Of a stretch of DNA of 64,000 nucleotides, positions 1,326 to 52,547 are shown piece after piece. Each line of letters starts with the position of its first letter. Positions within the stretch are counted from its first letter, which is position 1. The stretch spans positions 620,001 through 684,000 of the forward strand of contig NZ_WKLH01000002.1 of NCBI RefSeq assembly GCF_010882175.1. Reading direction: 5' to 3'. The position numbers and the translations under genes are program-made. The notes beneath the pieces are model-generated. The model worked only from the letters and a program-made list of their open reading frames with translations, was not told the DNA's origin and did not search any database. Origin of the DNA: Mangrovibacterium lignilyticum (GTDB taxonomy: Bacteria > Bacteroidota > Bacteroidia > Bacteroidales > Prolixibacteraceae).

Positions 1326-1955
1326 ATGACAGAGGCGGAATGCTTAGCTATTGAAGAAGCTATTGCTGACATTAGAGATGGAAAGCTGATTATTGTTACC
1401 GATGATGAAAATCGCGAAAATGAGGGTGATTTTATTGCTGCTGCAGAATTGACGAGTCCTGAAATTGTGAATTTCATGGCCACACATGGCCGAGGATTGA
1501 TCTGTGCAGCTCTTACCGGGGAGCGATGTAAAGAACTGAATCTTAATCGCATGGTAGAAGACAACACATCGCCCAACACCACCAACTTTACCGTATCCAT
1601 CGACTTGATCGGTCATGGATGTACAACTGGAATCTCGGCCAGCGATCGCTCGAAAACATTCAAAGCATTAACCGACCCGAATACAAAGCCTAAGGAACTT
1701 GGTCGACCTGGGCATATTTTCCCAATTATTGCACATCCCGGTGGTTTGCGCGCCCGACAGGGACACACCGAAGCAGCCGTATTAATACCGCGTCTGGCAG
1801 GCCTAAAACCTGCGGGCAGTTTGGTGGAAATCATGAAAGAGGACGGTACTATGGCTCGTTACGCCGACCTTTGTTTACTGGCTGAAAAAATGAACATCAA
1901 ACTAATAACAATCAAACAACTACTTGAGTATATGGACGAAAAATCCATCGACTAA
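1326..1955 (+). CDS. ribB: 3,4-dihydroxy-2-butanone-4-phosphate synthase
   Basis: RibB converts D-ribulose 5-phosphate to formate and 3,4-dihydroxy-2-butanone 4-phosphate for riboflavin synthesis in the cytoplasm. The 209-residue length fits the stand-alone synthase. The acidic active-site loop (DDENRENEGDF), the HGRGL segment, the GCTTGISASDR stretch and the C-terminal block with RPGHIFP and GHTEAA are all present. There is no GTP cyclohydrolase II (RibA) domain, whereas many Bacteroidota carry a RibBA fusion, so this may be a second copy. It ends 13 bases before the DeoR-family gene and may be co-transcribed with it. Its substrate, ribulose 5-phosphate, links it loosely to the sugar operon downstream; whether that link is functional is unknown. 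Confidence 0.93.
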   Translation: MTEAECLAIEEAIADIRDGKLIIVTDDENRENEGDFIAAAELTSPEIVNFMATHGRGLICAALTGERCKELNLNRMVEDNTSPNTTNFTVSIDLIGHGCTTGISASDRSKTFKALTDPNTKPKELGRPGHIFPIIAHPGGLRARQGHTEAAVLIPRLAGLKPAGSLVEIMKEDGTMARYADLCLLAEKMNIKLITIKQLLEYMDEKSID

Positions 1956-1968
1956 AAACCAAATAACA

Positions 1969-2736
1969 ATGGCAATGCTCCCCAATCAACGTCGTGAAAA
2001 AATATTGGAAATGATCCGCGAAGACGGTCATGCAAAAGTTCTGCAACTCAGTAAAATCTTCAAAGTAACTGAAGTAACCATCCGGCAGGATCTTGAAAAA
2101 TTGGAAAAAGACGGCTTTATTGAACGCGAACACGGTGGAGCTTACCTCAAGAATATTGGCATTAGCGTCAAAAACATCTCGCTGCAGAACCAGGAGCACC
2201 TCCACGAAAAAGCAGCCATTGCTAAAAAAGCTCTCGACTACATCAATGATGGAGATACCATTATTCTCGATTCCGGCTCAACGACAACCGAAATTGCAAA
2301 ATTGATTAACGGCTACAAAAACCTCACAGTAATCACAAACTCCTTGAATATTGCACTGATTCTTGGTGCCGACCCGGAAATCAATTTGGTTTTAACCGGA
2401 GGTGAATTTAAAGCACCCACTCTTTCGCTGACCGGGCAAAAAGCTGCCGACTTTTTTAACGATTTACATGTCGACAAACTATTTCTGGCAACAGCTGGCA
2501 TCACCCTTAAATCGGGGCTAACCTATCCTAGTATTAGCGACATTTGCGTTAAACGAAGCATGATTGAATCTGCAAACCTAGTATACTTGGTTGCCGACTC
2601 CAGCAAAATAGGAAAAAGCTCATTTGCCAGCTTGGGCGCACTTTCACTCATTGACGTTTTGATTACCGATTCGAAAATCAAAAAGGATGACATGAAGCTT
2701 TTCGAGGAAAATGATGTGAAACTGATCCTTTCTTAA
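1969..2736 (+). CDS. DeoR-family transcriptional regulator
   Basis: A DeoR/GlpR-type repressor that binds DNA and senses a phosphorylated sugar. I place the start at the ATG at 1969 (MAMLPNQRREKIL); the in-frame extension to 1924 would overlap ribB and lacks family similarity. Residues ~1-60 form the DeoR winged helix (QRREKILEMI, VTEVTIRQDLEKLEKDGFIEREHGGA). The rest is the sugar-phosphate-sensing domain, with ILDSGSTT, VITNSL and LTGG segments typical of the ISOCOT fold. It lies directly upstream of the kinase-isomerase-transketolase operon, whose promoter region carries TTTTCG-type direct repeats. It is therefore the obvious regulator of that operon, responding to a ketose phosphate made by it (inference). 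Confidence 0.93.
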   Translation: MAMLPNQRREKILEMIREDGHAKVLQLSKIFKVTEVTIRQDLEKLEKDGFIEREHGGAYLKNIGISVKNISLQNQEHLHEKAAIAKKALDYINDGDTIILDSGSTTTEIAKLINGYKNLTVITNSLNIALILGADPEINLVLTGGEFKAPTLSLTGQKAADFFNDLHVDKLFLATAGITLKSGLTYPSISDICVKRSMIESANLVYLVADSSKIGKSSFASLGALSLIDVLITDSKIKKDDMKLFEENDVKLILS

Positions 2737-2832
2737 ATAAACAATTATCCAACTACTTAAATTCCTGTTTCTCGCCTAATCTTAATTGAATAATTTCAAA
2801 TACGAATTATAAGCACAAATCCAAAGACTTTC

Positions 2833-2869
2833 TTTTGTTTTCGTTTATTTTCTTTTATTTTTGTTTTCG
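2833..2869 (+). promoter_or_regulatory. Promoter and candidate DeoR operator of the sugar operon
   Basis: A -33 box TTTG (2834-2837) and a -7 box TATTTTTG (2856-2863) are separated by 18 bases, a very good match to the Bacteroidota promoter pattern TTTG-N19-TAnnTTTG. The same stretch contains an exact 11-base direct repeat, TTTTGTTTTCG, at 2833-2843 and 2859-2869, with TTTATTTTC-like copies between. T-rich repeats containing TTTCG are typical DeoR-family operators. The overlap of repeats with both promoter boxes predicts repression by the regulator encoded just upstream. Confidence 0.7.
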
Positions 2870-2901
2870 AAAATCTAACAAAACTGAAATAAACGCAAAA
2901 A

Positions 2902-4401
2902 ATGAGTATGCAAGGAGTCTACATTCTGGCCATCGATCAAAGTACTTCCGGAACAAAAGCCATTCTTTTTGATCGTTCAGGAAAGCTGATTAACCGCAAA
3001 ACTATAAGCCACGAACAGTATTACCCTCAACCAGGATTCGTAGAACACGATCCGATTGAGATCTACAACAATACTTGCACTGCCATTCACCAGGTGATAG
3101 CCGAAAAAAAAGTAAGCGAAGCTCAAATTACCGGATTATCAATTACCAACCAGCGCGAAACGGCCCTGATTTGGAACAAGAACACCGGAGAGCCAGTAGC
3201 CAATGCCGCTGTTTGGCAATGCCAACGCGGTGCAGAAATGTGCAAGCAGTTGAAAGCCGATGGACTGGAAGCAAAGATCCGCTCAAAAACAGGTTTGGTA
3301 ATTGATCCCTATTTTTCGGCCAGTAAACTAAGCTGGATCATGAACAACACTGCTGGCTTAAAAGAACTGGCTCAGCAAGGCGAGCTGCTATTGGGAACAA
3401 TGGACAGCTGGTTGCTTTGGAAACTAACCAACGGCAAAGTTCACGCTACCGACCACAGCAACGCCTGTCGCACCATGCTATTCAATATTCACACCCTGGA
3501 CTGGGATGACGAATTAATTGAACTGTTTGGCCTGAATCGCAATATGTTCCCCGAGGTCCGTTTCAGTGACGAAATCTACGGATACACAACCATTTCGAAT
3601 CTTTTTAAAAAAGCCAAACCAATTGCCGGACTAATTGGCGACTCGCACGCCGCTTTATTCGGACAGAATTGCTTTCAATCGGGAATGGCCAAAGCAACCT
3701 ATGGCACCGGATCGTCCATCATGATGAATGTTGGACTCGAATGCCTCGATGCACCTGAAGGCCTGGTAAGCTCGATTGGCTATAGCTGTGAAAAAAAAGT
3801 GTACTATGTGTATGAAGGAAATATTCATTGCACCGGTGACACACTTAACTGGTTAAAAAACGATGTCGGCCTGATTCAGGACGCTTCCGAAACGGAATCA
3901 TTAGCAACATCTGTTCCCAATAATAACAACGTTTACCTGGTTCCTGCATTTGTTGGGCTTGGAGCTCCTTACTGGGACAACCAGGCAAGAGCATGCCTTT
4001 CGGGGATGGGACGCAACACTACCAAGGCACATATCGTTCGTGCCGCCTTGGAAAGTATAGCCTTCCAGGTGAACGACCTAATAAGCCTGATGGCTAAAAA
4101 AGGAGGAATTCAACTCAAAGAACTTCGGGTCGACGGAGGCCCAACACGCAATAAATTCCTGATGCAGTTCCAATCTGATTTATTAGGGCAACAAGTAGCT
4201 CCCTCAAAAATCGAAGAAGCATCAGCACTGGGCTCAGCTTATATGGCCGGTCTGGCTTTTGGTTTCTGGAAAGATCAAAAAGAACTCGAAAACCTTCGCG
4301 ACGAAAGTCAAACCTTCAATACAACAATGAATAAAGATGAAGTTAGCGCTTTAGTGAAAGGCTGGGAAACAGCAGTGAAAAGAGCCCGACTAACTGAATA
4401 G
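2902..4401 (+). CDS. FGGY-family carbohydrate kinase (glycerol-kinase-like)
   Basis: A 499-residue ATP-dependent kinase of the FGGY family, closest in appearance to glycerol kinase. The N-terminal ATP-domain motif AIDQSTSGTKA, the substrate motif NQRET (residues ~83-87), Tyr137 in PYFSASK, the catalytic Asp247 in GDSHAALFGQ and the phosphate loop ATYGTGSS are visible. Two positions differ from true glycerol kinase. WQDRR is WQCQR here, and the Gln after the catalytic Asp (GDQQ) is Ser (GDSH). With an isomerase and a transketolase downstream, the substrate is more likely a ketose (apulose, ribulose or xylulose) than glycerol. First gene of the operon behind the promoter at 2833-2869. The family is certain; the substrate is inferred. 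Confidence 0.85.
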   Translation: MSMQGVYILAIDQSTSGTKAILFDRSGKLINRKTISHEQYYPQPGFVEHDPIEIYNNTCTAIHQVIAEKKVSEAQITGLSITNQRETALIWNKNTGEPVANAAVWQCQRGAEMCKQLKADGLEAKIRSKTGLVIDPYFSASKLSWIMNNTAGLKELAQQGELLLGTMDSWLLWKLTNGKVHATDHSNACRTMLFNIHTLDWDDELIELFGLNRNMFPEVRFSDEIYGYTTISNLFKKAKPIAGLIGDSHAALFGQNCFQSGMAKATYGTGSSIMMNVGLECLDAPEGLVSSIGYSCEKKVYYVYEGNIHCTGDTLNWLKNDVGLIQDASETESLATSVPNNNNVYLVPAFVGLGAPYWDNQARACLSGMGRNTTKAHIVRAALESIAFQVNDLISLMAKKGGIQLKELRVDGGPTRNKFLMQFQSDLLGQQVAPSKIEEASALGSAYMAGLAFGFWKDQKELENLRDESQTFNTTMNKDEVSALVKGWETAVKRARLTE

Positions 4402-4435
4402 ACAATTGCAATTATAAAATCAAACAAAATAAATC

Positions 4436-5848
4436 ATGGAAAAGAAACACACCTTTGGCGTAATTATCGCGACAAGAAATATTTTCAACTCGCAATTGGC
4501 AGTTAATGCCCGCGCAAAAGTATTAGCAAAATTAAATAGCATGGGTTACGACCATGTGATTCTCGCGGAGTCGGAAACACCAACCGGAAATATTGAAGGA
4601 TACACCGATGCTGTTAAGTGCGCAAAGCTGTTCAAGGAAAACAGCGATAAAATTGACGGGATCCTGGTTGTTTTGCCAAACTTTGGCGACGAACTCGGCG
4701 TTGTGAATTCCATTAAAATGTCCGGTCTTACCGTACCAGTATTGGTTGTAGCCTGCGACGACGACAACGACAAAGTTGATGTGAAAAGCCGCCGGGATGC
4801 TTTCTGCGGAAAGCTTTCTGTTTGCAATAACTTCTACCAGTACGGAATTAAATTCACCGATACCATTTATCACACTTATAACTTAGACAGTGCTGAATTC
4901 ACCAAAGACCTGCTGAAATTCGCCGGCATTTGCCGCGTGGTCAAAGGCCTGAACGGTCTTCGTGTTGGAGCAATCGGAACCCGCCCTATCGGATTCCAAA
5001 CCATGCGCTACAGTGAGAAGCTGCTTCAAAAATACGGCATCACAATCGTTCCTGTTGATATGTCGGAAATTATTGCCGCGGCTGAAAAAATCGACGAAAA
5101 CGATCCGGCTGTTGTAGCCAAAGTAAAAGCCATTCAGGCTTACGGAAGCTGCGCCATCACCGCGCAAAAGAAAATCGCAAAACAGGCCCGTTTCGGTTTG
5201 GCTGTTGAAAACTGGATCAACGATAACGACATTGACATCTCTGCCCTGCAATGCTGGGAATCAATCGAGAAGAACTACGGTTGTGCCGCTTGCGTCACCA
5301 TGAGTATGATGGGTGAAAAACTGATGCCATCGGCCTGCGAAGTTGATGTTGCAGGAACCATCTCCATGTACGCGCTGGCTTTGGCCGCCGAAACACCATC
5401 AGCAATTCTGGACTGGAACAACAACTTTGCTGAAGACCGCAACAAAGTGGTCTGCACACACTGCAGTAACTACCCCAAATCATTCTTCCAAAACGACATC
5501 GAAATTGGCAGTCTGGATGTGCTGGGAACAGTTTTGGGTAGCGAAGATACTTTCGGAGCAGTCAAAGGAAAAGTTGCTGCCGGCAACATGACTTACTTCC
5601 GGATCTCAACAGACGATGTAAAAGGTACAATCAAAACATATTTGGGCGAAGGCACAATGACCGACGATCCTTACGGAATGGATGGCGGTATTGCCGTTTG
5701 TGAAATCCCGAACCTGCAAAACCTAATGAAGTACATGTGTAAAAACGGATTTGAACACCACGTTGCCATGGTTCGCGGACATGTATCTGAAATTCTGGAA
5801 GAAGCCATTGGCAACTATCTCGGATGGGATTTATACACCCACGAATAA
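4436..5848 (+). CDS. L-fucose/L-arabinose-isomerase-like sugar isomerase
   Basis: A 470-residue cytoplasmic protein of the FucI/AraA superfamily, which interconverts aldoses and ketoses using a divalent metal. Features consistent with the fold are the N-terminal Rossmann-like segment (FGVIIATRNIF), the central stretch ALQCWESIEKNYG with a candidate metal Glu, a CEVDVAG segment with a further acidic pair, and a late His (HHVAMVRGH). It follows the kinase by 34 bases and precedes the transketolase N-subunit by 20. It is not a canonical FucI (about 590 residues) or AraA (about 500), so the sugar cannot be read from sequence. Possible substrates are D-apiose, D-arabinose or L-fucose-like sugars. 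No aldolase or 4-epimerase gene is present, which argues against standard fucose and arabinose routes. Confidence 0.75.
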   Translation: MEKKHTFGVIIATRNIFNSQLAVNARAKVLAKLNSMGYDHVILAESETPTGNIEGYTDAVKCAKLFKENSDKIDGILVVLPNFGDELGVVNSIKMSGLTVPVLVVACDDDNDKVDVKSRRDAFCGKLSVCNNFYQYGIKFTDTIYHTYNLDSAEFTKDLLKFAGICRVVKGLNGLRVGAIGTRPIGFQTMRYSEKLLQKYGITIVPVDMSEIIAAAEKIDENDPAVVAKVKAIQAYGSCAITAQKKIAKQARFGLAVENWINDNDIDISALQCWESIEKNYGCAACVTMSMMGEKLMPSACEVDVAGTISMYALALAAETPSAILDWNNNFAEDRNKVVCTHCSNYPKSFFQNDIEIGSLDVLGTVLGSEDTFGAVKGKVAAGNMTYFRISTDDVKGTIKTYLGEGTMTDDPYGMDGGIAVCEIPNLQNLMKYMCKNGFEHHVAMVRGHVSEILEEAIGNYLGWDLYTHE

Positions 5849-5868
5849 CATCTAAAGTAGAAAATTGA

Positions 5869-6729
5869 ATGAAAAGATTTAGTGACATTGAATTGATGCT
5901 GAAATCGGTTCACTACCGCAAAGCATTACTCAAATACATCAAAATAGCTAAAGCCGGACATACGGGTGGAAGCCTCTCCAGTACAGATATTCTAAACGTT
6001 TTGTACAATGACGTATTGAACGTGTCGCCTGAAAATTTTGGGGATCCGAATCGTGATCGCTATGTGCAAAGTAAAGGACACTCCGTCGAGTCGCTTTATG
6101 TGGTGCTGGCCGATAAAGGGTTCTATCCTGAGAGTGATTTGGAAACGCTCTGTCGGTTCAAGTCGAAATATGTTGGTCATCCAACCCGGAAAGTGAATGG
6201 CATCGAGTTCAACACCGGTGGACTAGGCCATGGACTACCCATCAGCGCCGGCATTGCACTTGCCGGCAAAAAAGACAAGGCGCCCTACAAGGTGTTCACA
6301 CTGCTCGGCGACGGCGAGTTGGCCGAAGGATCGAACTGGGAAGGCGCCATGATGGCAGCCCACTACAAGCTGGATAACCTGACCGCTATTCTGGACCACA
6401 ACAGCTTACAGATCACCGGCCGCAACAGAGATGTTTGTTCTCCTTACCCAATCGACAAAAAGTTTGAAGCTTTTGGCTGGAAGGTTGTGATTGTTGACGG
6501 AAACAACATTCCGGAGCTTCGCAAAGTATTGAATGCGACTCCGGCTGAAGAGGGAAAGCCAACATTGGTCATTGCAAACACGGTAAAAGGCAAAGGCGTT
6601 AGCTATATGGAAGACGTAAAAAAATGGCACCACGGTGTACCTTCTGATGAAGAATACAAACAAGCCATCGCCGAACTGGATTCCCAGGAAGCTGAATTGA
6701 AAAAACAACTTGAAACTGTTAACTCATAA
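5869..6729 (+). CDS. Transketolase, N-terminal (pyrophosphate-binding) subunit
   Basis: The first half of a split transketolase, 286 residues. It carries the thiamine-diphosphate signature GDGELAEG followed by a downstream Asn (LDHNS), plus the family motifs KAGHTGGSLS, SKGHSVESLY and TGGLGHGLP. It acts as a heteromer with the next gene, moving a two-carbon ketol unit between sugar phosphates. Split transketolases occur as accessory enzymes in catabolic operons, including the apulose-4-phosphate transketolase pair, in addition to housekeeping full-length forms. The operon position after a kinase and isomerase indicates a dedicated catabolic role (inference). Confidence 0.92.
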   Translation: MKRFSDIELMLKSVHYRKALLKYIKIAKAGHTGGSLSSTDILNVLYNDVLNVSPENFGDPNRDRYVQSKGHSVESLYVVLADKGFYPESDLETLCRFKSKYVGHPTRKVNGIEFNTGGLGHGLPISAGIALAGKKDKAPYKVFTLLGDGELAEGSNWEGAMMAAHYKLDNLTAILDHNSLQITGRNRDVCSPYPIDKKFEAFGWKVVIVDGNNIPELRKVLNATPAEEGKPTLVIANTVKGKGVSYMEDVKKWHHGVPSDEEYKQAIAELDSQEAELKKQLETVNS

Positions 6730-6739
6730 ACTGAAAATA

Positions 6740-7690
6740 ATGAGCTTAAAAGCATTAGAATTAGGGAAAGCAAACCTCGAGGAATTTTCAGCAACAATGA
6801 TTGAGTTAGCAGAAAAGGACTCTAAAATACTGGCGGTTACCAGCGACTCTCGAGGATCAGGAAAACTGGTGTCTTATGCCGAAAAACTGCCCGAACAAAT
6901 TGTTGAAGTTGGTATTGCCGAGCAAAACCTCGTTGGCGTGGCAGCAGGCCTTGCGTCGACCGGCAAAAGCGTATTTGCGGTTTCGCCGGCTTGTTTTCTG
7001 GCGACCCGCTCACTCGAGCAAATCAAAAACGATGTAGCCTATTCGAACTACCCGGTTAGCCTGATTGGCATTAGCGCCGGAGTTAGCTACGGAGCTCTTG
7101 GTACAACTCATCACTCGCTTCACGATATTGCCGCCCTTCGTGCAATGCACAACATGCAGATTGTGATACCTGCCGACAACTTCGAAACACGGGAGGTCAT
7201 TACTTACGCCGCTCAATCAGAAAAGCCAATCTTCATTAAGTTTGGGAAGAAGAATATGCCCCACCTGCCGCGCGTGAATAAAAAATTCGAGATCGGCAAG
7301 GCATCGGTGATTTGCGAAGGCTCCGATGTGGCTTTCATTGCTTGTGGCGAAACGGTAGCTCCGGCCTACGAAGCAGCCCGCTTGCTCGAAGAGAAAGGCA
7401 TTTCAGCAGAGGTGGTGAGCATGCACACCATCAGTCCACTGGACGAGGCTGCGATTTTAAAATTGGCCTCGAAATGCAAAGCGATTATTACGGTCGAAGA
7501 ACACAGCGTGCATGGTGGCCTGGGTGAAGCCTGCGCTGCAGTGCTGCTTCAAAATCAAGCCATCGTACCGTTCAAGATTGTCGGCATACCCGACGAAGAT
7601 ACCGTTCCCGGCTCTCAGGGGGAAATCTTCGACTATTACGGAATTTCGGGCGAAGGATTGACTAAGACAGCATTGAATCTGTTGAAGTAA
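6740..7690 (+). CDS. Transketolase, C-terminal (pyrimidine-binding) subunit
   Basis: The second half of the split transketolase, 316 residues from the ATG at 6740. The longer frame to 6710 would overlap the N-subunit and was not used. It has the pyrimidine-binding domain with the cofactor-activating Glu in VGIAEQNLVG, then a C-terminal domain with the VVSMHTISPLD and ITVEEHSVHGGLG motifs. It begins 10 bases after its partner, consistent with coupled translation. It ends the operon; a hairpin follows at 7757-7799. Confidence 0.92.
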   Translation: MSLKALELGKANLEEFSATMIELAEKDSKILAVTSDSRGSGKLVSYAEKLPEQIVEVGIAEQNLVGVAAGLASTGKSVFAVSPACFLATRSLEQIKNDVAYSNYPVSLIGISAGVSYGALGTTHHSLHDIAALRAMHNMQIVIPADNFETREVITYAAQSEKPIFIKFGKKNMPHLPRVNKKFEIGKASVICEGSDVAFIACGETVAPAYEAARLLEEKGISAEVVSMHTISPLDEAAILKLASKCKAIITVEEHSVHGGLGEACAAVLLQNQAIVPFKIVGIPDEDTVPGSQGEIFDYYGISGEGLTKTALNLLK

Positions 7691-7913: not shown

Positions 7914-9584
7914 ATGCGAAACAGAATCCTTCTTTTTGCTCTCTTGATCTATTCAACATTCAGCTGTACACCCAAAAAGCCAGAATCTCGGGTTGGCCTT
8001 TACCGCACTTTTGAACAGTCGTTGGAAAACACCACGCCTTATTCAAATAAGTTTACCGGTGTTGAGCTAAAATGTACGTTTATCGCTCCATCAGGGAAAA
8101 AGACGAAGTTTATCGGCTTTTTCGATGGTGACGGAGCTGGAGGTGGCGACAAGAAAAACGGTTCTATCTGGAAGTTTCGCTTCATTCCTGATGAAATCGG
8201 CGCATGGCACTATCAATGGAAATGGAGCGATAGCACACCCGGCGGAGAAGATCGATTTATATGTGATACAACCAACGCGGGCAAAGGTATCTTACGGGCT
8301 TACAGCAAAAATCCGCGTTGGCTGGCCTATAACGGCACCGAGCCGGTTTGGCTAAAATCGTATTACGAAAGCGGACACGGCTCTATTGCACAACCTTTCG
8401 ACTGGATCACCACCAACGTTTACCAACCAATGATTGACCGCGGGTACAACCACCTTATGGTGAACTGGCTGCTTTCACTTTGCTGCTTCACGCAAATCTA
8501 CCACGACGGTCCCGCCCCTGCAACACAAGATCTGACACTCTACGAAGATGGCAAAGCTTCGGAAACAATGCGTCTTAATGTGTGGCAACTAATGGAACAG
8601 CATGTTTCGTGGCTTAACGACCGAAATGTCGGGCTACACCTGTTTTTGGGATTTGACGGAAGTAAAAACGATGGGCCTGAGTGGTCGAATTTGAGCGAAG
8701 AGGAAAAAGATTTTCTGGTGCGTTATACGGTTGCCCGTCTGGCCCCGTACGCCAATATTGCGGGCTGGGGATTTGTATGGGAAGTTCCCGGTGACCGTGA
8801 ATACTCAGAATTGGGATGGGCCCGGCTTATTCAGAAATACGATGTGTTCGATCACCTCCGAACATACGAAGATGAACATCCGGTAGAAAACGAGTACAAC
8901 CGACCGGAATACAATTTCGCCGCAATCGAAAACCATTCTATTTTCTCTGATGATCGTGATGCTGACCGTCCCTACTGGAAGGACGCATGGACACATCATC
9001 AGGCTTGTTTGGCCGGTTATGTACCAGGCAAACCGGTTTACATGATTGAAGGCAATGCTCTATGGAGGCGTTTCTGGCAACAGCGAACGAAAGCCACACG
9101 CGACGATTTACGCCAATCGGCATGGGCCTGTGTTACCGCCGGAGCATCATTCAACTGGTGTGGGCACGCTGGAGAAGATTCCCTCGTGGCTTTCGGCCCC
9201 GAAGGCTTGCCCTTTTTTGGCGATGATAATCCTTATGCCGCGTCTGCCCGCCAAATAGATCTGCTGAGCGAAGTAATGAATCGCGAAGTACAGTTTTACA
9301 CCATGAACCCGGCCGACTCATTATTGGCCGACTGCGATGAAAAACATGTTTGGTGTCTGGCTGAGCCCGCCCAACAATATTTGGTATTTTCGACAACAGG
9401 AGATTCCTTCAAACTTCGATTGAACCAAGGAAATTACACCGACAATACCTGGATGAATACGATAACCGGAGAAAAACAAAACATTGCTCCGATCACTCTG
9501 AAAAAGGATAAATTAGTTTCGTTTAGCCCTCCCGATCAGCAATCCGACTGGCTTCTACTTGTACGCAGAAAGCAGAACGAATAA
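7914..9584 (+). CDS. Lipoprotein glycoside hydrolase, DUF5060 plus TIM barrel (apiosidase-like architecture)
   Basis: A 556-residue secreted lipoprotein (lipobox STFSC near residue 18). Residues ~30-130 look like the DUF5060 beta-sandwich (GVELKCTFIAPSG, GSIWKFRFIPDEIGAWHYQW). Residues ~145-470 look like a clan-A-type (beta/alpha)8 glycosidase barrel, starting with the entry motif WLAYNGTEPVWLKS. A candidate acid/base Glu lies in GFVWEVPGD and a candidate nucleophile Glu in MIEGNALW. This domain order is found in apiosidase-like (GH140/DUF4038) and related enzymes, but identity to GH140 cannot be shown by eye. The neighbouring kinase-isomerase-transketolase operon makes release of a branched or unusual pentose attractive. 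An alternative is another DUF5060-containing glycosidase with a different sugar. Confidence 0.65.
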   Translation: MRNRILLFALLIYSTFSCTPKKPESRVGLYRTFEQSLENTTPYSNKFTGVELKCTFIAPSGKKTKFIGFFDGDGAGGGDKKNGSIWKFRFIPDEIGAWHYQWKWSDSTPGGEDRFICDTTNAGKGILRAYSKNPRWLAYNGTEPVWLKSYYESGHGSIAQPFDWITTNVYQPMIDRGYNHLMVNWLLSLCCFTQIYHDGPAPATQDLTLYEDGKASETMRLNVWQLMEQHVSWLNDRNVGLHLFLGFDGSKNDGPEWSNLSEEEKDFLVRYTVARLAPYANIAGWGFVWEVPGDREYSELGWARLIQKYDVFDHLRTYEDEHPVENEYNRPEYNFAAIENHSIFSDDRDADRPYWKDAWTHHQACLAGYVPGKPVYMIEGNALWRRFWQQRTKATRDDLRQSAWACVTAGASFNWCGHAGEDSLVAFGPEGLPFFGDDNPYAASARQIDLLSEVMNREVQFYTMNPADSLLADCDEKHVWCLAEPAQQYLVFSTTGDSFKLRLNQGNYTDNTWMNTITGEKQNIAPITLKKDKLVSFSPPDQQSDWLLLVRRKQNE

Positions 9585-11066: not shown

Positions 11067-11759
11067 CTACATCTTGCGATGCATGCAGGTTTTCATCTGG
11101 CACAAATCACAGTGATAGTCCCGGTACTGCACGTCAGAACCGACACCGATAATTCCGCTAATCGATTTTATCGGATGCATTAAGGCTGATGGCGTTAGCG
11201 AAACACCTCCTGTTTTACCCTCAAAAAGAGAAAACAACGCATGCTGGTCGGCCACATCCCAATGACAGTAGCCCGGGCTGTACCGATTGGTAATTTGCAT
11301 CCCTTGTGCCTGAGCCTCGGCTTGAATACGCTCCTGTAACCGATCGGCCACTGCTTCTGCAATGGCTGATCCGAAAACATTCAGCACATAACCATAAACA
11401 GGATCATCACCGCGCAAAAGTCGGTCGGCTTCTTCGGAAATGGTTTTGCCGGCTGTGCATATAAACAGGGCAGCATGGCTTGATTCTCTTAACTCTCCGG
11501 TAATTGTTTTGCCCGGCTTCAGCTTCACCCCCTTTAGATGCAAAGAGCGCCCGTTGGTCAGAAACTGCGAAGGTTCAAACAGTTGATAGGAACCGACAAT
11601 ATCGTTTACTGATGAAGCAAGATTTTGCGCTTCACTCAGATAAAAAGGAAAGGGTTCGGGCATCGCATCAAGGGGATAGCCCAGTTCCCGGGAAATGAAT
11701 TCTTCATCCAGTTCCAATTCTTCAAAACGAAAGGATATTTCGTAAATCATAGCCGACAA
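11067..11759 (-). CDS. MetH-activation-domain protein (corrinoid reactivation candidate)
   Basis: A 230-residue protein matching the S-adenosylmethionine-binding activation domain of B12-dependent methionine synthase, without the rest of MetH. The conserved binding segment RYSPGY (159-164) is followed by HWDVADQHALF, and SLTPSALMHPIKSISG aligns with the MetH SLTESYAMWPGASVSG region. The C-terminus is Cys-rich (CDLCQMKTCMHR), as in the stand-alone versions found with corrinoid methyltransferases of anaerobes. The likely role is reductive remethylation of an inactive cob(II)alamin on the corrinoid protein encoded at 13999-14667. The start overlaps the end of the CobW-like gene by 13 bases; an alternative start is the internal ATG three codons in. 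Confidence 0.85.
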   Translation of the reverse strand: MSAMIYEISFRFEELELDEEFISRELGYPLDAMPEPFPFYLSEAQNLASSVNDIVGSYQLFEPSQFLTNGRSLHLKGVKLKPGKTITGELRESSHAALFICTAGKTISEEADRLLRGDDPVYGYVLNVFGSAIAEAVADRLQERIQAEAQAQGMQITNRYSPGYCHWDVADQHALFSLFEGKTGGVSLTPSALMHPIKSISGIIGVGSDVQYRDYHCDLCQMKTCMHRKM

Positions 11760-12643
11760 TATTCATCGTATTTAAGCTGTAAGTTAACGCTTTTATCAAA
11801 CTGCCCGATCAACACCAATTCGGTGCTGCCTGCCTGCTGATCCAACTCTTTAATTTCGAGCTGATCGAAAACAGCCTGCATGAAACCCTGCTTTCCATTT
11901 TCGAGTCGAACAAAACCCTTGGCACGAAAACATGCTCCGTTCAAGTTCTGAACAAACGAGCGCAGTGCTTTTTCGCTAATACTTTGTGCACTTTTAATTA
12001 CGACCGACTCCACATCAGGGCGCCCGCCGATCGCCTGTTCAACCATAAAGAAACGTGGTTTTCCGCTCAGCTCGTAATCTTCAATTTGTCCGTGCCGGGC
12101 CTCGACCAAAGCCGAGAATGGATTCATCTTTTGAATGTCGGTTTTCAGTTCATTCAAATCCCCGTCGTACAGGTCAAGCTTATTCAACAGTACAATATCA
12201 GCACTGCGAACTTGATGTTCCAGACGCAATTTTAAAGCCGGAGCCCGGTCGAAATGTTTCGCATCAACCAGGCACCAAACTTTATCCAAATATATTTTTC
12301 CGCGTAATTTTTCAGATTGAAAAACCTGCCCAACCCCAAGGGTATCAGAAAGACCGGAAGCTTCCATCAACAGCAGATCAGGCTTTACCTGATCAACAAA
12401 CTGACGGAGCGAATCGATGAACGATCCCAGCAAACAGACACAAAAAACCGATCCATTATTCACTTCCAGCATCTCGCAACTAAAATCGGCTTTCAGCTCC
12501 TGCCCATCGATATTGACAGGCGAAAATTCATTTTGAATAACCGCCACTTTTTTCGACTGAGACAGGTATGGCCAATAATGTTTCAGGAAAGAGGTTTTGC
12601 CACTTCCCAGAAAGCCGGTAATTAATTGCAAGGGAATACTCAT
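11747..12643 (-). CDS. CobW/HypB/UreG-type GTPase
   Basis: A 298-residue G3E P-loop GTPase of the COG0523/CobW type. The Walker A motif GFLGSGKTS (residues 9-17), Walker B-like LLMEASGLSDT and the guanine-specificity motif NKLD are clear. The usual metal-binding CxCC motif is changed to CVCL (VFCVCLLGS), so one ligand Cys is missing. In this operon it may load or protect the metal or cofactor of the corrinoid system, in the way MeaB-type G3E GTPases protect B12 enzymes; that is inference. Its start codon overlaps the stop of the UroD-thioredoxin gene by 4 bases, showing translational coupling. Confidence 0.87.
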   Translation of the reverse strand: MSIPLQLITGFLGSGKTSFLKHYWPYLSQSKKVAVIQNEFSPVNIDGQELKADFSCEMLEVNNGSVFCVCLLGSFIDSLRQFVDQVKPDLLLMEASGLSDTLGVGQVFQSEKLRGKIYLDKVWCLVDAKHFDRAPALKLRLEHQVRSADIVLLNKLDLYDGDLNELKTDIQKMNPFSALVEARHGQIEDYELSGKPRFFMVEQAIGGRPDVESVVIKSAQSISEKALRSFVQNLNGACFRAKGFVRLENGKQGFMQAVFDQLEIKELDQQAGSTELVLIGQFDKSVNLQLKYDEYCRL

Positions 12644-13989
12644 ACGGCCAGTTCTTTTTCGAATGCCTCAATAATGGCAGACTTCGGTGGGATCTGGCTA
12701 ATAAAGGCCACCTTACCATTCACACAAGTAGTTGGCACATTCTGAACGCCCAACGCCATCATCATGCGAATACCATCCACATTTTTGATTTTGTGTTCGA
12801 TGACTTCTACTGCTCCATCAAAATCGGCAGCCGCTTGTTTTACCGCTTCGACCATGTATTGGCAAGGAGCACACGAAGCTGAATCAAGTGTAATAATATC
12901 GACCACAATTTTGTCGTCGGCAAAATGTCCATCCAGACTCATTGGTTCCAAAGAAGCCACATGCTCCATTTCGCGGGTAGCTTGTTGTGCATACTCACTA
13001 TAAACAAGCTCGGTTACCGCCTGCAGGTTTTCAACCGGCGTATCCATTGGCAAGTCGCATCCAGGAGCCAAAATAAATCCTTTTACGCCTCCCAAGTCGA
13101 TACAGCTAACAGCTTCCTTTTTCGAATCCAGCTCGTTCCCAAGAAGCAGCACACTGGTCAGTTTCAGGTTTCCACCAAAACTAATTCCTTTGGCTAGCGC
13201 TGTTTCCTTCACAAAATCCAATGGAATATTTTCATCAATCGAAATATTATCGGGACGGCAGTCACACATCACTTCAATGTTTTGTTGCGCATGACCACAC
13301 ACGAAAAAAGAACTATACTTATCTTTCGAACGAACGAAGTCGAAAATTCGTTTGGCATAAGGGCTTACGAAAGTCTCGAAAGACATCGGATCAATCTGGC
13401 TGGTCATTGGATCAACTACGGCAATGACATCGCAACCGGAATCCAGTAACATTTCCGAATAGCGCATCCCCACTTCAGTGCAAAAATCCATTAGCTCAAC
13501 TACATAATCGGGATCTTCAAACAACTTCATAAATATTTCAGTACCCAACAGGTGCAAGGCTAAAGTAAACGGTCCGGTAATTAAACCATACACACCCAAT
13601 TCGGGGTACTTACCTTTAATGGCTTTGGTCGCCTCCAACACGACAGGAATACGACCATCGGTTGCTTCAGGCAGTTTTAAGTCGGCCAGAGGCGTACCTT
13701 CCAACAATGGATGTGAAATCACAGCCGGTGGATTTTCCTTACTCCACACCAGTTTACAACCCAAAATTTCTGCTTCAACCTGCAAGTCGAACACAATAGG
13801 AATACCATCAGGTTGATACAAGCTAATGGATTTCTCGATACCTTGTTTAATCAACTCCGCATCTTTCAAGTAAGTTTCTGCGTCAACACCGATAAGCTTT
13901 CCTCCATGAACACCCACAAAAGGCACCCAGGGTGCGCGTTTAGTTTCTTCCAGCTTAAAAGCCTTCTTTAATAATTCTATTCCGTTCAT
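12640..13989 (-). CDS. UroD/MtaA-like methyltransferase fused to a thioredoxin-like domain
   Basis: A 449-residue two-domain protein. Residues ~1-345 belong to the uroporphyrinogen-decarboxylase fold used by MtaA/MtbA methylcorrinoid methyltransferases (RAPWVPFVGVHGG near the N-terminus, YGLITGPFTLALHLLG centrally). Residues ~360-449 form a small thioredoxin-like domain with CAPC at 373-376 and a cis-Pro-like NVPTTCVNG. The MtaA zinc motif HxC is changed: the Cys is present in FFVCGHAQQ but the His two residues before is Phe, with a His two residues after. The C-terminal zinc Cys (LAPGCDLPMDTP) is kept. It sits next to the corrinoid protein (9-base gap), so methyl transfer to or from cobalamin is the likely role. 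A heme-pathway decarboxylase is unlikely in this context. Confidence 0.85.
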   Translation of the reverse strand: MNGIELLKKAFKLEETKRAPWVPFVGVHGGKLIGVDAETYLKDAELIKQGIEKSISLYQPDGIPIVFDLQVEAEILGCKLVWSKENPPAVISHPLLEGTPLADLKLPEATDGRIPVVLEATKAIKGKYPELGVYGLITGPFTLALHLLGTEIFMKLFEDPDYVVELMDFCTEVGMRYSEMLLDSGCDVIAVVDPMTSQIDPMSFETFVSPYAKRIFDFVRSKDKYSSFFVCGHAQQNIEVMCDCRPDNISIDENIPLDFVKETALAKGISFGGNLKLTSVLLLGNELDSKKEAVSCIDLGGVKGFILAPGCDLPMDTPVENLQAVTELVYSEYAQQATREMEHVASLEPMSLDGHFADDKIVVDIITLDSASCAPCQYMVEAVKQAAADFDGAVEVIEHKIKNVDGIRMMMALGVQNVPTTCVNGKVAFISQIPPKSAIIEAFEKELAV

Positions 13990-13998
13990 ATTTTTGGC

Positions 13999-14667
13999 TT
14001 AAGCGGTTTGCTTGTTTAAGAATTCAACGACCCCTTGTGGATCGGGTGCGTAATAGTCGGCGCCGATTTTCTGACTAAAATCTGCATTTACCGGAGCACC
14101 ACCAATGGTAACCAGTGTATTGGGATAAACAGCTTTAATTTCCTGCGTGATGCGTTCCATGTTGGCCATTGTTGTTGTCAACAAAGCCGACAAACCTACT
14201 GCGGCATCCGGATGTTCCTCCAAGGCAGCCAGATATTTATCTGTATTTACATCAATACCCAAATCAATCACCTTGTAACCATTACCCTCCAGCATCATGG
14301 CCACCAGGTTCTTACCAATATCGTGCAAATCGCCTAAAACAGTTCCGATTATAAAGGTTCCTTTTTGTTTGGCCTCGCCTGAAGCAAAGAAAGGTTTTAA
14401 ATGGACCATCGCAGTACTCATTGCCTTTGCCGACATCAATACTTGCGGGACAAACACTTTGTTTTCGCGGAACTTCACGCCAACACGCTCCATTCCGGGC
14501 ATCAGGCCCTTAGTTAACACATCCTGAGCAGCAACGCCTTGTTCAATTGCCTGACGTGTAATTTCATCGGCTCCGTCCATTCCTTTCATTTGTGGCGGAA
14601 ACGGAGCAGCCTTATTGACTTTTCCAAACTCTACGCATTCCGAAAGTTGATTCAATAAATCACTCAT
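13999..14667 (-). CDS. Corrinoid (cobalamin-binding) methyltransferase protein
   Basis: A 222-residue corrinoid protein of the MtaC/MtbC/MttC type. An N-terminal helical cap (residues ~1-95) precedes a B12-binding Rossmann domain with the base-off signature DLHDIGKN, whose His115 would ligate cobalt. It continues with VIDLGIDV, LSALLTTTM and TIGGAPVN. It is the methyl carrier of the operon and would cycle between cob(I)alamin and methylcobalamin. It is the first gene of a four-gene minus-strand operon. A TAAATTTG box (minus strand, 14695-14702) lies 28 bases upstream. The methyl donor enzyme (an MtaB/MttB-type protein) is not in the window. Confidence 0.92.
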   Translation of the reverse strand: MSDLLNQLSECVEFGKVNKAAPFPPQMKGMDGADEITRQAIEQGVAAQDVLTKGLMPGMERVGVKFRENKVFVPQVLMSAKAMSTAMVHLKPFFASGEAKQKGTFIIGTVLGDLHDIGKNLVAMMLEGNGYKVIDLGIDVNTDKYLAALEEHPDAAVGLSALLTTTMANMERITQEIKAVYPNTLVTIGGAPVNADFSQKIGADYYAPDPQGVVEFLNKQTA

Positions 14668-14785: not shown

Positions 14786-15649
14786 ATGATAATAAAACGA
14801 AGATTTTCGAAAGTTCCCGACGTTATTCTGAGCGCACAGCGCCATGATGAGCTCACCCTGGACTTGTATTTATGCGAACTGACCGAATTGTTGATGGGTA
14901 AACAAACAATCCACAAACAGCTCACTCCCTTGAATGATTACCTATTAATATACTGCACTAAGGGCCATTTATTACTCTCCATTGCTTCCGACAGGGTTTG
15001 GATGCAGAAAGAGCAATTTTGTATCATCCCTAAGGGCTTTCAATACCATTTTGAAGTCGGAGAAAGCGAGCCGACAAATGTTTTCTTATGCTATTTTAAC
15101 GGCTCCAAGACCAAGATACTTGAAAAAGAATTCACAGCGGTTCGAGACCTTGTTCCATCGGTAAACAACCTCGTTGCCAATCGCAAGATGCTGTTTGACG
15201 AGCTTTTTGCAAACCTGAGCAGAGGGTACAACAACGCGAACATGCACTATATAAACTTCACCTTTGCCCACCTACTGGCTACATTTGTATTTGCCTCGCG
15301 AACCGGGGATGATCTTTTGACCGAGGAAAACCCGATGGTTCAAAACCTGATTAGCTTTATGGAGCAGAATATTGAAAAGAAAATGACATTAAATGATTTT
15401 GCGCACGAAAGCGGCTACTCAATTACTTATTTGTCAACGATTTTCAGGCGGGTCACCAACTACAGCCCACTAAGTTACTTTTCACACCTGAAAATTAGCA
15501 AGGCCTGCGAATACCTTGATCAAACCAGTATGAAGATTAAGCAAATTGCCTACAAAATGGGCTACACAGACGCTTATTACTTCTCGAAGGATTTTCAGAA
15601 GAAAATGGGACTTTCACCCCGCGCTTATCGTCAAAGGCTGAAACAATAA
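14786..15649 (+). CDS. AraC-family transcriptional regulator
   Basis: A 287-residue regulator with an N-terminal cupin-like ligand domain (residues ~15-180; RVWMQKEQFCIIPKGFQYHF is a typical cupin strand run) and a C-terminal double helix-turn-helix (FAHESGYSITYLSTIFRRV, then IAYKMGYTDAYYFSKDFQKK, ending SPRAYRQR). It is divergent from the corrinoid operon, sharing a 118-base control region, so it is the likely regulator of that operon. The inducer may be a methylated compound or sugar; it cannot be read from sequence. Confidence 0.9.
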   Translation: MIIKRRFSKVPDVILSAQRHDELTLDLYLCELTELLMGKQTIHKQLTPLNDYLLIYCTKGHLLLSIASDRVWMQKEQFCIIPKGFQYHFEVGESEPTNVFLCYFNGSKTKILEKEFTAVRDLVPSVNNLVANRKMLFDELFANLSRGYNNANMHYINFTFAHLLATFVFASRTGDDLLTEENPMVQNLISFMEQNIEKKMTLNDFAHESGYSITYLSTIFRRVTNYSPLSYFSHLKISKACEYLDQTSMKIKQIAYKMGYTDAYYFSKDFQKKMGLSPRAYRQRLKQ

Positions 15650-18605: not shown

Positions 18606-19280
18606 CTACAGTTCAATTCCTTTTTCCCGCAAACGTTCATGCCATTCTTCACTGGCTTTATTCAAGTCATAACCTTCTTTCGACAGGTAGTTATTAATCC
18701 GGCCTTTGTATTTACCAAACCAGGCATGTTTTGCTTTTGATGAACCGGCATCCATCGCTTTTTCGCGCGCCTCAACCAACGCATTCCAAATGTAGGTTTT
18801 CTGGTCTTTGGTCAAGTCGGGAAGCATATCCAAATAGCCATCCCAGGTATGCACCAACACACTGTAAGTCATACCATTTTTAACTTCATCAATTTGCTCC
18901 GCAGTCAGTTCTTTAGACAAGTCTTTTAAATACGATTTATGCAGTTTAGCCAGATCCTTTTCGCGCTTGGCGTTTAGCTTCTCAATCTCCTTTTCTTTCT
19001 TGGCCTTTTCGAGATCCGATTTTTTCAGTTCCTCTATTTTCTCGTCTGTGGTGTCGTGAATGCCATTCAATCGGTAATACTGTGCCGCAATTAAGTCCTG
19101 CACCTGCTTCTCTTTCGCGGCATCCTTCAAATCCATGGACTCAACAATTTTTGCTGCCCTTCCGGATACGACTTCCCAATATTCTTGATTGGTAAACTCT
19201 TTATAATTCATTTGCTGTGCCATTCCGCTCAGGCTAAAAACCAGGATCGACACAAAAGCGATTAAACTTATCTTTTTCAT
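18606..19280 (-). CDS. DUF3826 secreted protein
   Basis: A 224-residue exported protein with a signal peptide ending near SLSGMAQQ. The body resembles DUF3826, a helical family common in pectin utilization loci of Bacteroidota. The middle (residues ~80-125) is a long charged helix rich in Lys and Glu, probably coiled coil. The C-terminal part contains WDGYLDMLPDLTKDQKTYI and WFGKYKGRINNYLSKEGYDL. The function is unknown. It lies 35 bases upstream of the large pectate lyase and 18 downstream of the isomerase-like lipoprotein. Confidence 0.8.
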   Translation of the reverse strand: MKKISLIAFVSILVFSLSGMAQQMNYKEFTNQEYWEVVSGRAAKIVESMDLKDAAKEKQVQDLIAAQYYRLNGIHDTTDEKIEELKKSDLEKAKKEKEIEKLNAKREKDLAKLHKSYLKDLSKELTAEQIDEVKNGMTYSVLVHTWDGYLDMLPDLTKDQKTYIWNALVEAREKAMDAGSSKAKHAWFGKYKGRINNYLSKEGYDLNKASEEWHERLREKGIEL

Positions 19281-19298
19281 CTTGTCTGCTTGTTAGTT

Positions 19299-20198
19299 TT
19301 ATTGAAAAATTGATTTTAAGTAAGCCACATTGGCTCCGAAATTTCCACGAACATCGCGTGGGTTATTGGCGTCTCTCGACCGTTCTACAATTAACCAGCC
19401 ACTCCATCCCATTTTATCGAGCGTACTCTTCACCTTCTGCATGTCAATCTCGGGATCGTTCTCTAACCAAACGCTATCTTTATTGGTTGCGTGTATCTGG
19501 CAGATCCGGTCGGCTCCCAGTATTTCAAGTTCCTGGTATAAATCGCGTCCGGCTTTCAGAGGGTTTGAGAAGTTGAAACTAATTTGAATAGCCGGACTAC
19601 CAATTTCGTCCAACAGTTGCACTTCACCCGTTGCATCCAGTGCGGTTTCGATTCCAATTACGACTTCAGCTTCTTCGGCATATTTTGCCACCTCTTTTAG
19701 CCGTTCAACAATAGCCTCGCGGCGTTCCGGATGTTGCACAAGGTCACCTTCGACGCCCAAAGGCAGAAATCCAACTTTTGTGCCAACCTTTTTCATGCTA
19801 GTAATGCAATCACGAACCGCCTGAACTGCAGTTTCCTTATAGGGGAACGATTGAGCATAAAAACCGGACATGGACAAGGCACAAATTTCAATTCCGTTAT
19901 CTTTTGATGCCTGTAAAAACAAGTTCAGCAATGAATCGTTGGCCAGCTTGTTATCGAAAGTTGGTCTTTTCCCCAGACCTCCCATATCCACTTCCAATCC
20001 TTCAGCTCCAATTTCTTTCGCCAAAGGAAAAGCACTGAGCTTTTGCCGTTTTAGAATCATCAGGTCGACAACAGCAATTTTATACTGTTGTTCTTTTTCG
20101 CTTTTCTTACTTGCTGACTGGCAACTAACCGTATTCAGGCATAGCGCAGCAAGCAAAAAGAGACTTATGATTTTATAGTTTGATTTTTTCATTTTCAT
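19299..20198 (-). CDS. Secreted TIM-barrel sugar isomerase/epimerase-like lipoprotein
   Basis: A 299-residue lipoprotein (signal LLAALCLNTVSC, Cys 27 as anchor) with the AP-endonuclease-2/xylose-isomerase-like TIM barrel used by sugar-phosphate isomerases and epimerases. Barrel motifs include LEVDMGGLG, VVIGIETALD, IQISFNFSNP, RICQIHATNKD and GWLIVERSRD. The candidate metal ligands are Glu in GIETAL, Asn in SFNFSN, His in QIHATN and Glu in VERSR; the position usually Asp is Asn. Most relatives act in the cytoplasm, so the lipoprotein signal is notable. It would act in the periplasm or at the outer membrane on free sugars or oligosaccharide ends. Alternatively it has lost catalysis and binds ligand. 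Confidence 0.8.
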   Translation of the reverse strand: MKMKKSNYKIISLFLLAALCLNTVSCQSASKKSEKEQQYKIAVVDLMILKRQKLSAFPLAKEIGAEGLEVDMGGLGKRPTFDNKLANDSLLNLFLQASKDNGIEICALSMSGFYAQSFPYKETAVQAVRDCITSMKKVGTKVGFLPLGVEGDLVQHPERREAIVERLKEVAKYAEEAEVVIGIETALDATGEVQLLDEIGSPAIQISFNFSNPLKAGRDLYQELEILGADRICQIHATNKDSVWLENDPEIDMQKVKSTLDKMGWSGWLIVERSRDANNPRDVRGNFGANVAYLKSIFQ

Positions 20199-38408: not shown

Positions 38409-38452
38409 GTTGTTTGTTTAGGTATGATTTCGTTTAATTTGGTTTATTTATT

Positions 38453-42917: not shown

Positions 42918-42944
42918 TAATTGGTTTTATTTAGGTCGAAAGGC

Positions 42945-46508: not shown

Positions 46509-46514
46509 GAATCT

Positions 46515-49004: not shown

Positions 49005-49057
49005 CTTTATTATTTTTCGTCTCCGGTCTATTAACCTGGTATCTCTTTTGTTTGTGC

Positions 49058-51775: not shown

Positions 51776-51809
51776 CCGTTTTCTGTTATTTCAAATTGAA
51801 TGATTGTCG

Positions 51810-52532: not shown

Positions 52533-52547
52533 ATTCTTGACTTCCGT

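Follow-up and report, generated by a model that had tools for sequence, protein, structure and literature searches.

The window, a stretch of 64,000 nucleotides of Mangrovibacterium lignilyticum (contig NZ_WKLH01000002.1, positions 620,001 to 684,000), carries at its positions 11067-14667 one minus-strand unit of four genes, which encode a corrinoid protein (COR), a UroD-family methyltransferase fused to a thioredoxin domain (UROD-Trx), a CobW-type GTPase (CobW), and a MetH-type activation-domain protein (ACT), with a divergent AraC gene beside COR. With good probability, these four genes represent the invariant part of a corrinoid-dependent O-demethylase for sugars that works without oxygen, the partner of which would be UroD2a, a UroD protein encoded elsewhere in the genome, and the likeliest substrate of which would be 2-O-methyl-L-fucose (or a methyl-rhamnose) from the pectin rhamnogalacturonan II (RG-II). 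The reading draws on gene anatomy, protein folds, co-occurrence across genomes, and the identity of the enzyme encoded next to UroD2a as a GH139 glycoside hydrolase, all of which were computed.

A constant four-gene core

The tight coupling of the four genes, put by the earlier note at less than 15 bases, was confirmed, with a 9-base gap between COR and UROD-Trx, an overlap of 4 bases between UROD-Trx and CobW, and an overlap of either 4 bases (ATG at 11750) or 13 bases (TTG at 11759) between CobW and ACT. Its description of the unit as a corrinoid methyl-transfer set with a reactivation protein of its own was likewise borne out by the Met_synt_B12 domain of ACT, judged by family alone; the unit contains no RACo-type gene. 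COR is a small free-standing corrinoid protein by its Pfam domains and its His-on motif GDLHDIGKN, the cobalt-ligand motif, of which D113, H115, and G118 are at least 95% conserved in 55 aligned homologues, while the nearest NCBIfam models were MtgC/pyl_corrinoid (also MtbC), all below cut-off. The best PDB match of UROD-Trx is MtaA (4ay7, 3.5e-30), and its thioredoxin domain, which had gone unnoticed in the earlier note, spans residues 370-441 (Thioredoxin_3, 5.3e-8) with the CxxC motif SCAPC. C231, C311, C373, and C376 are at least 97% conserved among 58 distinct orthologues sharing at least 53% identity with the window protein. Both cysteines of the MtaA zinc site are kept and F229 aligns with the histidine of its HxC motif, such that the candidate for a second methyltransferase (MT2) in the unit is an MtaA-like protein with Phe in place of the zinc His. 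UROD-Trx is the constant component and probably acts as second transferase and/or redox partner. The CxC (C68, C70) and GxxGxGKT region of CobW and the RxSPGxC of ACT are at least 95% conserved (40 and 35 homologues, respectively); CobW is probably a GTPase for corrinoid-protein maturation or reactivation, whereas ACT would perform the reductive remethylation of the corrinoid.

The grouping was examined in 38 loci with UROD-Trx, namely the window and 37 relatives (by record title 34 Bacteroidota and three from other phyla, L033, L035, and L038, all metagenome-assembled genomes), 25 of which are flanked by 3 kb or more on both sides. Neighbour labels here and below stem from BLAST against a reference set, only part being checked by Pfam/NCBIfam, so that unlabelled genes may be sugar genes, and rhaM is probably undercounted where another open reading frame overlapped it. 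Since COR, CobW, and ACT were found within 5 kb of UROD-Trx in 24, 24, and 19 of the 25 well-flanked loci, their grouping is not a matter of chance. An AraC orthologue was present in six of these loci, a homocysteine S-methyltransferase in eight, RACo in three, and a second UroD in 11; the corresponding counts over all 38 loci were 31 for COR, 33 for CobW, 23 for ACT, nine for AraC, 14 for the homocysteine S-methyltransferase, three for RACo, and 12 for a second UroD, two further RACo-like genes (L013 and L026, 32-33% identity) falling below the identity threshold of the count. The AraC gene probably belongs to the module, because its orthologue lies beside UROD-Trx in 9/38 loci. The UROD-Trx family itself is sharply bounded and patchily distributed: of the 198 genomes searched in the order, 10 contain an orthologue, each with E no higher than 5.1e-167, and the E values then jump to 3.2e-25.

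Several side observations touch the core. UROD-Trx reaches about 540 amino acids or more in L013-L018, L021, L022, L024-L026, L028-L035, and L040, where the extra stretch of about 90 residues C-terminal of the thioredoxin domain resembles, by eye, a second thioredoxin fold without CxxC. Weak matches below cut-off were obtained for the window's CobW and UROD-Trx genes to the CobW-related selenoprotein family NF041053 (2.1e-12) and the HUIPC thioredoxin selenoprotein family NF047660 (1.8e-7); selenocysteine may occur in related systems. In L028 and L032, the core genes stand in altered order and strands with no sugar label, Nramp-like and hydantoinase-like genes lie downstream of the core in L028, and genes of similar size do so in L032. 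The third B12-binding protein of the genome (L003:1222-2121) looks by eye like a MerR-type regulator, of the kind known as light/B12 sensors.

Probable partner UroD proteins beside sugar genes

Pfam recognises three UroDs in the genome of M. lignilyticum (G000), namely HemE, UROD-Trx, and UroD2a, the last being the only non-HemE member besides UROD-Trx and lying about 83 kb from the core. With no second UroD inside the unit, the term "self-contained" used in the earlier note does not hold. Among 120 sampled genomes of the family, UROD-Trx was found in 45, and a further non-HemE UroD was present in all 45 of these versus 43 of the 75 without UROD-Trx (Fisher 1.5e-8; this test and those relating win39 and GH139 to UROD-Trx ignore shared ancestry). 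For this count, every URO-D match below 1e-85 was taken as HemE, one UROD-Trx was assumed per core genome (G243 has two), and scoring was limited to 15 candidates per genome. The core would thus appear, from sequence comparison, to need a partner UroD that is variable and often encoded beside sugar genes.

The surroundings of these partners were surveyed in 13 core-bearing genomes, picked for having at most three extra UroDs; of their 26 extra UroDs, all of which were covered, 17 have a gene for sugar transport, a sugar kinase, a glycosidase, or SusC/D nearby. RhaT adjoins ten of them (UroD2a/UroD2b type; in G000, G213, G216, G218, G231 twice, G239, G243, G261, and G262), and seven have other sugar genes (GH106/GH139/GH78 in G260, and elsewhere ROK kinase, fucosidase families, SusC/SusD, GH31/GH2/GH141, or a sugar MFS transporter). 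The HemE neighbourhoods of nine genomes showed no RhaT, RhaM, galactokinase, or corrinoid label, and contained one SusC/SusD and one GH3. RhaT stands within 6 kb of UroD2b in 5/5 cases. In L106 and L107, which hold two of the five UroD2f proteins, UroD2f and the core have a galactokinase as direct neighbour (that of L106 scores above the NCBIfam TIGR00131 cut-off), and in L027, L109, and L110, UroD2c and the core are accompanied by an alpha-amylase, a GH31 enzyme, or both. Methylated sugars as methyl donors, suggested by the earlier note, gain support from these neighbourhoods. We lean slightly towards the view that one core serves as a plug-in platform for interchangeable UroDs, directed at 2-O-methyl-fucose (GH139/RhaT), methyl-galactose (galactokinase), or methylated alpha-glucans (alpha-amylase/GH31), with the thioredoxin-fused UroD being a new kind of second transferase.

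UroD2a has an HxC motif, no PDB match by sequence at E 0.01, and a gene adjoining those for RhaM, RhaT, and a GH139 enzyme; because of these neighbours, 2-O-methyl-L-fucose (or methyl-rhamnose) would be its most likely substrate. The GH139 protein matches PDB 9hyq almost end to end (1.1e-276), and the residues singled out in PMC12282258 (Q411, N412, E561, N639, E641, W683, D723, and N729) are identical in 8/8 positions in this protein and in 10/10 further homologues. An assignment of the neighbour, a DUF5703 protein, to GH95 was ruled out by the 9hyq match. No family other than GH139 is known to release alpha-1,2-linked 2-O-methyl-L-fucose, and the Bacteroides thetaiotaomicron enzyme BT0984 is reported to free 2-O-methyl-fucose in RG-II use (PMC12282258). 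Among 11 distinct UroD2a proteins, eight have GH139 and nine have RhaT within 6 kb, and a further UroD2a is located beside GH139 in L257. Some loci hold the components together: L036 contains RhaT, UroD2a, and the full core, and L094, from another family (G064), an MtaA-like UroD (25% to UroD2d), COR, GH139, AraC, UroD2a, and RhaT.

Natural absences were found within the genus. G209 and G227 keep, in order, GH106, a SASA-type-like gene (by eye), GH139, GH78, and GH127, but between GH139 and GH78 they lack UroD2a, rhaM, and RhaT as well as a gene without Pfam match that by eye resembles a transporter; the same two genomes have no UROD-Trx (at 1e-60), no UroD but HemE, and no homologue of win39, the UroD-fold protein described below. 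In G239, the fourth member of the genus sampled, UroD2a and GH139 are 87% and 90% identical to those of M. lignilyticum and are accompanied by RhaM and RhaT, while its UROD-Trx is just 53% identical and has a RACo gene beside it, as though the core had been exchanged and the partnership kept. On the wider scale, UROD-Trx is present in 15/20 genomes with GH139 versus 30/100 others (Fisher 2.6e-4), where GH139 was counted at 57% identity or more and 22 genomes with weaker GH139-like matches were counted as being without it. A rule that GH139 implies UroD2a proved false, as UroD2a adjoins GH139 in 7/20 GH139 genomes and not in the other 13 (one of which, G273, has only 0.5 kb on one side); all of the seven have UROD-Trx, compared with eight of the 13.

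As to mechanism, we infer from these data in which direction the methyl group flows, what the substrate and acceptor are, and what UROD-Trx, CobW, and ACT do. An O-methyl sugar would be imported, whereupon a sugar-specific UroD-type substrate methyltransferase (MT1), encoded outside the unit, would transfer the methyl ether group to the cob(I)amide of COR by way of the UroD2 zinc site, yielding the free sugar and methyl-COR. UROD-Trx, being MtaA-like, would then pass the methyl group from COR to a thiol or one-carbon (C1) acceptor, and CobW together with ACT would load COR or reactivate it after accidental oxidation. UroD2a would be the MT1 of M. lignilyticum, with win39 possibly a second. UROD-Trx is unlikely to be the substrate enzyme itself, because it stays constant and variation in step with the sugar genes is seen in the other UroDs. 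Homocysteine is a plausible acceptor in view of the S-methyltransferase gene near 14/38 cores, though none lies in the window unit.

The second candidate, win39, was also absent from the earlier note. It has no Pfam or NCBIfam match; nevertheless, its predicted fold places it in the UroD superfamily, with hhalign against the UroD2 profile giving a probability of 95.8 (E 7.6e-9) and its AF2 model (pLDDT 92.7 for the aligned prediction) having MtaA 4ay8 as best Foldseek match (1.1e-9, TM about 0.6). Orthologues with at least 60% identity occur in 11/45 genomes with UROD-Trx versus 2/75 without; the matches at 1e-6 numbered 17/120 genomes, of which these 13 were counted and G230, G288, G300, and G309 (25-31%) set aside, G230 and G300 having UROD-Trx. 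In L200 and L201, a win39 homologue starts a same-strand run including Gfo/Idh, transporter, isomerase-like, and DUF3826-type genes, COR, UROD-Trx, CobW, ACT, and a GH43-like gene. The protein is a candidate for a second sugar-specific MT1 at the same locus. As a separate observation, a Pfam UroD is paired with a win39-like UroD (HYCG) in the glycan loci L189:7296-9731 and L190:6742-8946.

Table 1. Positions of the core, its candidate partners, and the accompanying glycan genes (window positions unless a contig is given).
Feature	Position	Strand	Evidence
COR, free-standing corrinoid protein (predicted methyl carrier)	13999-14667	-	Pfam B12-binding_2 3.5e-19, B12-binding 2.5e-25
UROD-Trx, MtaA-like UroD methyltransferase with C-terminal thioredoxin	12640-13989	-	URO-D 2.5e-57
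CobW/COG0523-type GTPase	11747-12643	-	cobW 2.7e-36, CobW_C 5.5e-9
ACT, MetH-type activation-domain protein with Cys-rich C-terminus	11067-11759	-	Met_synt_B12 1.3e-10
AraC-family regulator, divergent	14786-15649	+	HTH_AraC 8e-23
DUF3826-type and TIM-barrel isomerase-like genes	18606-20198	-	Homologues directly precede COR in L006/L200/L201; Pfam of the L006 homologues
SSS-type transporter (by eye) and Gfo/Idh/MocA oxidoreductase	36825-39514	-	Homologues 73-84% identical, between win39 and core in L200/L201
win39, UroD-fold protein, HxDG in place of HxCG	39555-40619	-	hhalign, AF2, Foldseek
Glycan genes around win39: GH31, GH2-like (by eye), GH95, rhaM-like, GH141	40644-54695	-	Pfam
UroD2a	G000:C9:717787-718830		Pfam UroD
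GH139 enzyme beside UroD2a	G000:C9:718868-721186		PDB 9hyq

The link to pectin breakdown drawn by the earlier note was supported, and enzymes of RG-II type are present, namely the BT1002-like GH141 of the window (3.1e-54 to PDB 5mqp, BT_1002) and GH139 at the partner locus; the gene at 7914-9584, compared with the PDB as a possible GH140, gave no match there. The window also encodes, at 1924-7690, a DeoR-like regulator, an FGGY-type kinase, a protein of fucose-isomerase type, and a split transketolase, some of these labels having been given by eye, and kinase (67%), isomerase (87%), and transketolase-like genes stand directly beside the GH139-UroD2a pair in L257 (823-6681). Split transketolases occur in pathways for apiose, a sugar of RG-II. 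After the core, L200 (10982-15322) has genes of GH43-like, RhaM-like, and aldo/keto reductase type together with amidohydrolase-like and dehydrogenase-like ones labelled by eye, a set reminiscent of an oxidative fucose/rhamnose pathway.

Counter-evidence and rival explanations

A number of findings weigh against the sugar O-demethylase. UroD2a is distant from the core in its own genome, and win39 lacks HxCG. The pairing of UROD-Trx with a partner is not exclusive, because 43/75 genomes without UROD-Trx also carry extra UroDs and L094 and L101 are corrinoid-protein modules without it. Of the 26 extra UroDs surveyed, four have a Gfo/Idh gene only (L169, L170, L172, and L173), one lies beside a corrinoid cluster (L171), and four are without any labelled gene (L174, L177, L179, and L181). 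No galactokinase, amylase, or GH31 label accompanies three of the five UroD2f proteins or three UroD2c loci (L021, L024, and L025, all carrying a homocysteine S-methyltransferase), and within 6 kb of the UroD2a of G108 (L095) neither a sugar gene nor a corrinoid gene was labelled. Eight of the 15 genomes with both UROD-Trx and GH139 have no UroD2a beside GH139, and five genomes with GH139 have no UROD-Trx. Furthermore, Pterin_bind is found in M. lignilyticum only in MetH and in one other protein far away on contig C9, presumably FolP, so that no dedicated methyl route to tetrahydrofolate is visible and transfer to it through a known MT2 is not supported. Lastly, RhaT/RhaM and GH78/GH106 suggest rhamnose as much as methyl-fucose.

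Among the rivals, a dispersed methionine synthase deserves the first hearing, doubtful as it is: COR, ACT and, in relatives, the homocysteine S-methyltransferase would make methionine, with UroDs replacing the folate domain and supplying an alternative donor. ACT is indeed a MetH activation domain, the S-methyltransferase near UROD-Trx in 14/38 loci matched Pfam S-methyl_trans at 1.8e-69 in the one case scanned, and in L171 (9253-11552) this gene, COR, and ACT stand together next to a UroD2c-like gene, with UROD-Trx missing, so as to resemble a MetH taken apart and deprived of its folate module. The window unit, however, has no S-methyl_trans gene, the only match in the genome being MetH on contig C10. 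This explanation is an account of where the methyl group goes, and a methyl sugar as its source would agree with it.

Rhamnose ethers constitute a serious alternative substrate, even if rather unlikely as the whole account: the module would serve a methyl rhamnose or another 6-deoxyhexose ether of bacterial or algal glycans, and GH139 would stand beside UroD2a for another reason. Such a substrate would agree with RhaT being so frequent near UroD2a and UroD2b, with the matches, below cut-off, of the RhaT and RhaM of M. lignilyticum to NCBIfam rhamnose models, with GH78 and GH106 in the UroD2a locus, and with sulfatases beside UroD2b in L007/L008. Set against this are the GH139 genes near eight of the 11 UroD2a proteins and in L257, and the complete retention of the GH139 residues.

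An improbable explanation is a methyl-sulfur or methyl-selenium system resembling the type I mlp clusters, in which UROD-Trx would be an S/Se-methyltransferase and the sugar genes bystanders. UROD-Trx and UroD2d are the highest scorers against the MtaA/MtbA models among the UroDs scanned, UROD-Trx keeps the two MtaA zinc cysteines, weak selenoprotein matches exist as noted above, and type I clusters, so far as the available text of PMC10418091 goes, likewise have no tetrahydrofolate methylase. According to the same source, S-methyltransferases of the UroD superfamily use His-Cys-Cys, while carboxylates or non-coordinating residues replace one or both cysteines in the O-methyltransferases (PMC10418091). 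When the zinc-site columns of 69 distinct partner-type UroDs were aligned (leaving out 24 HemE rows, four Phe-type rows, and one duplicate), His-Cys-His was found in 44, His-Cys-Cys in 14, and other sets in 11; the 14 would suit a sulfur or selenium substrate, but 55/69 lack the set typical of S-methyltransferases. The third-column His need not be a metal ligand, since it also occurs in 24/24 HemE rows, which tempers what the 44 can say for O-demethylation. Also unfavourable to this explanation are the recurrence of UroD2 proteins beside sugar transporters, mutarotases, kinases, and glycosidases, the rarity near the core of a RACo-type activator, the type nearest to Ram/RACE (3/25 well-flanked loci, plus the two weaker cases in L013 and L026), and the absence of the words Bacteroid-, CobW, and sugar from the main text of PMC10418091.

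A module for methanol, methylamine, or aromatic O-demethylation that has nothing to do with glycans is very improbable, for although the composition resembles such systems and the best families of COR are MtgC/MtbC, the MttB/MtgB-type family PF06253 was found in 0/15 genomes including that of M. lignilyticum (control Methanosarcina acetivorans positive), the loci read yielded no gene recognisable as acting on amines or aromatics (some genes there being unlabelled, and no search being made for MtaB, PF12176), and the recurrent labelled neighbours are sugar genes. A self-contained methanol/methylamine module was rejected in particular, with no MttB and no separate MT1 candidate in the constant unit; the MttB- or MtaB-type neighbour that the earlier note had named as telling against its proposal was thus not encountered for MttB. 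Its other suggested donors fared less well, as no neighbourhood read pointed to trimethylamine or to methyl-esterified pectin (pectin methylesterase was not searched).

Significance and comparison with known systems

Sugars capped by O-methyl groups occur in pectin RG-II, red-algal porphyran, and other glycans, and the sole bacterial route for removing these groups found described in the sources available is an oxygen-using P450 (PMC10033563). No description of a corrinoid sugar O-demethylase was found among the titles and abstract beginnings listed from the open-licence literature. If true, the proposed system would be, to our knowledge, the first anaerobic route for methyl-ether sugars and would account for the final breakdown of methyl-capped sugars in oxygen-free sediment and mud. 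It would also link glycan breakdown to the supply of vitamin B12, provide anaerobic C1 metabolism with a further source of methyl groups, and assign a concrete role to the UroD-family proteins found in glycan loci, with UroD2a, COR, UROD-Trx, CobW, and ACT as testable partners.

The O-demethylases of acetogens and Desulfitobacterium consist of a UroD-type MT1 (VdmB/OdmB, both named in PMC10418091), a corrinoid protein, an MT2, and an ATP-dependent activating enzyme. The system considered here shares the UroD-fold methyltransferase, the small corrinoid protein, and a reactivase, with RACo-type genes beside some relatives; it differs in having MT1 candidates beside sugar genes, a MetH-type activation domain and CobW as the putative reactivase, a UroD-thioredoxin fusion, and no MT2-looking Pterin_bind gene in the genome. 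The type I mlp clusters described by Kountz and Balskus (PMC10418091), 73% of whose genera are given there as Firmicutes, are alike in combining MtaA-like UroDs with a corrinoid protein in the absence of a tetrahydrofolate methylase. In the portions of that paper available, however, they have Mlp2 plus Mlp3, Ram/RACE, His-Cys-Cys zinc sites, and sulfur/selenium genes, whereas the five genes of the window unit comprise one MtaA-like protein with Phe-Cys-Cys and neither RACo nor a second UroD. MetH and the split MetH/MtgBCDE (PMC12478193, seen in part) find a parallel in the corrinoid, activation, and homocysteine domains that are separate genes in some relatives, but homocysteine and pterin-binding domains are neither in nor beside the window unit, which has UroD proteins instead.

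For RG-II use by B. thetaiotaomicron, in which GH139 frees 2-O-methyl-fucose and to which the BT1002-like GH141 of the window corresponds, the main text of PMC12282258, as far as available, does not use "demethyl" and makes no statement on the fate of the methyl sugar. In porphyran-degrading Flavobacteriia, by the available account (PMC10033563), a methyl-ether sugar, 6-O-methyl-D-galactose, is likewise demethylated beside glycan loci; there, a P450 monooxygenase releases the methyl group as formaldehyde, whereas here it would be carried on cobalt.

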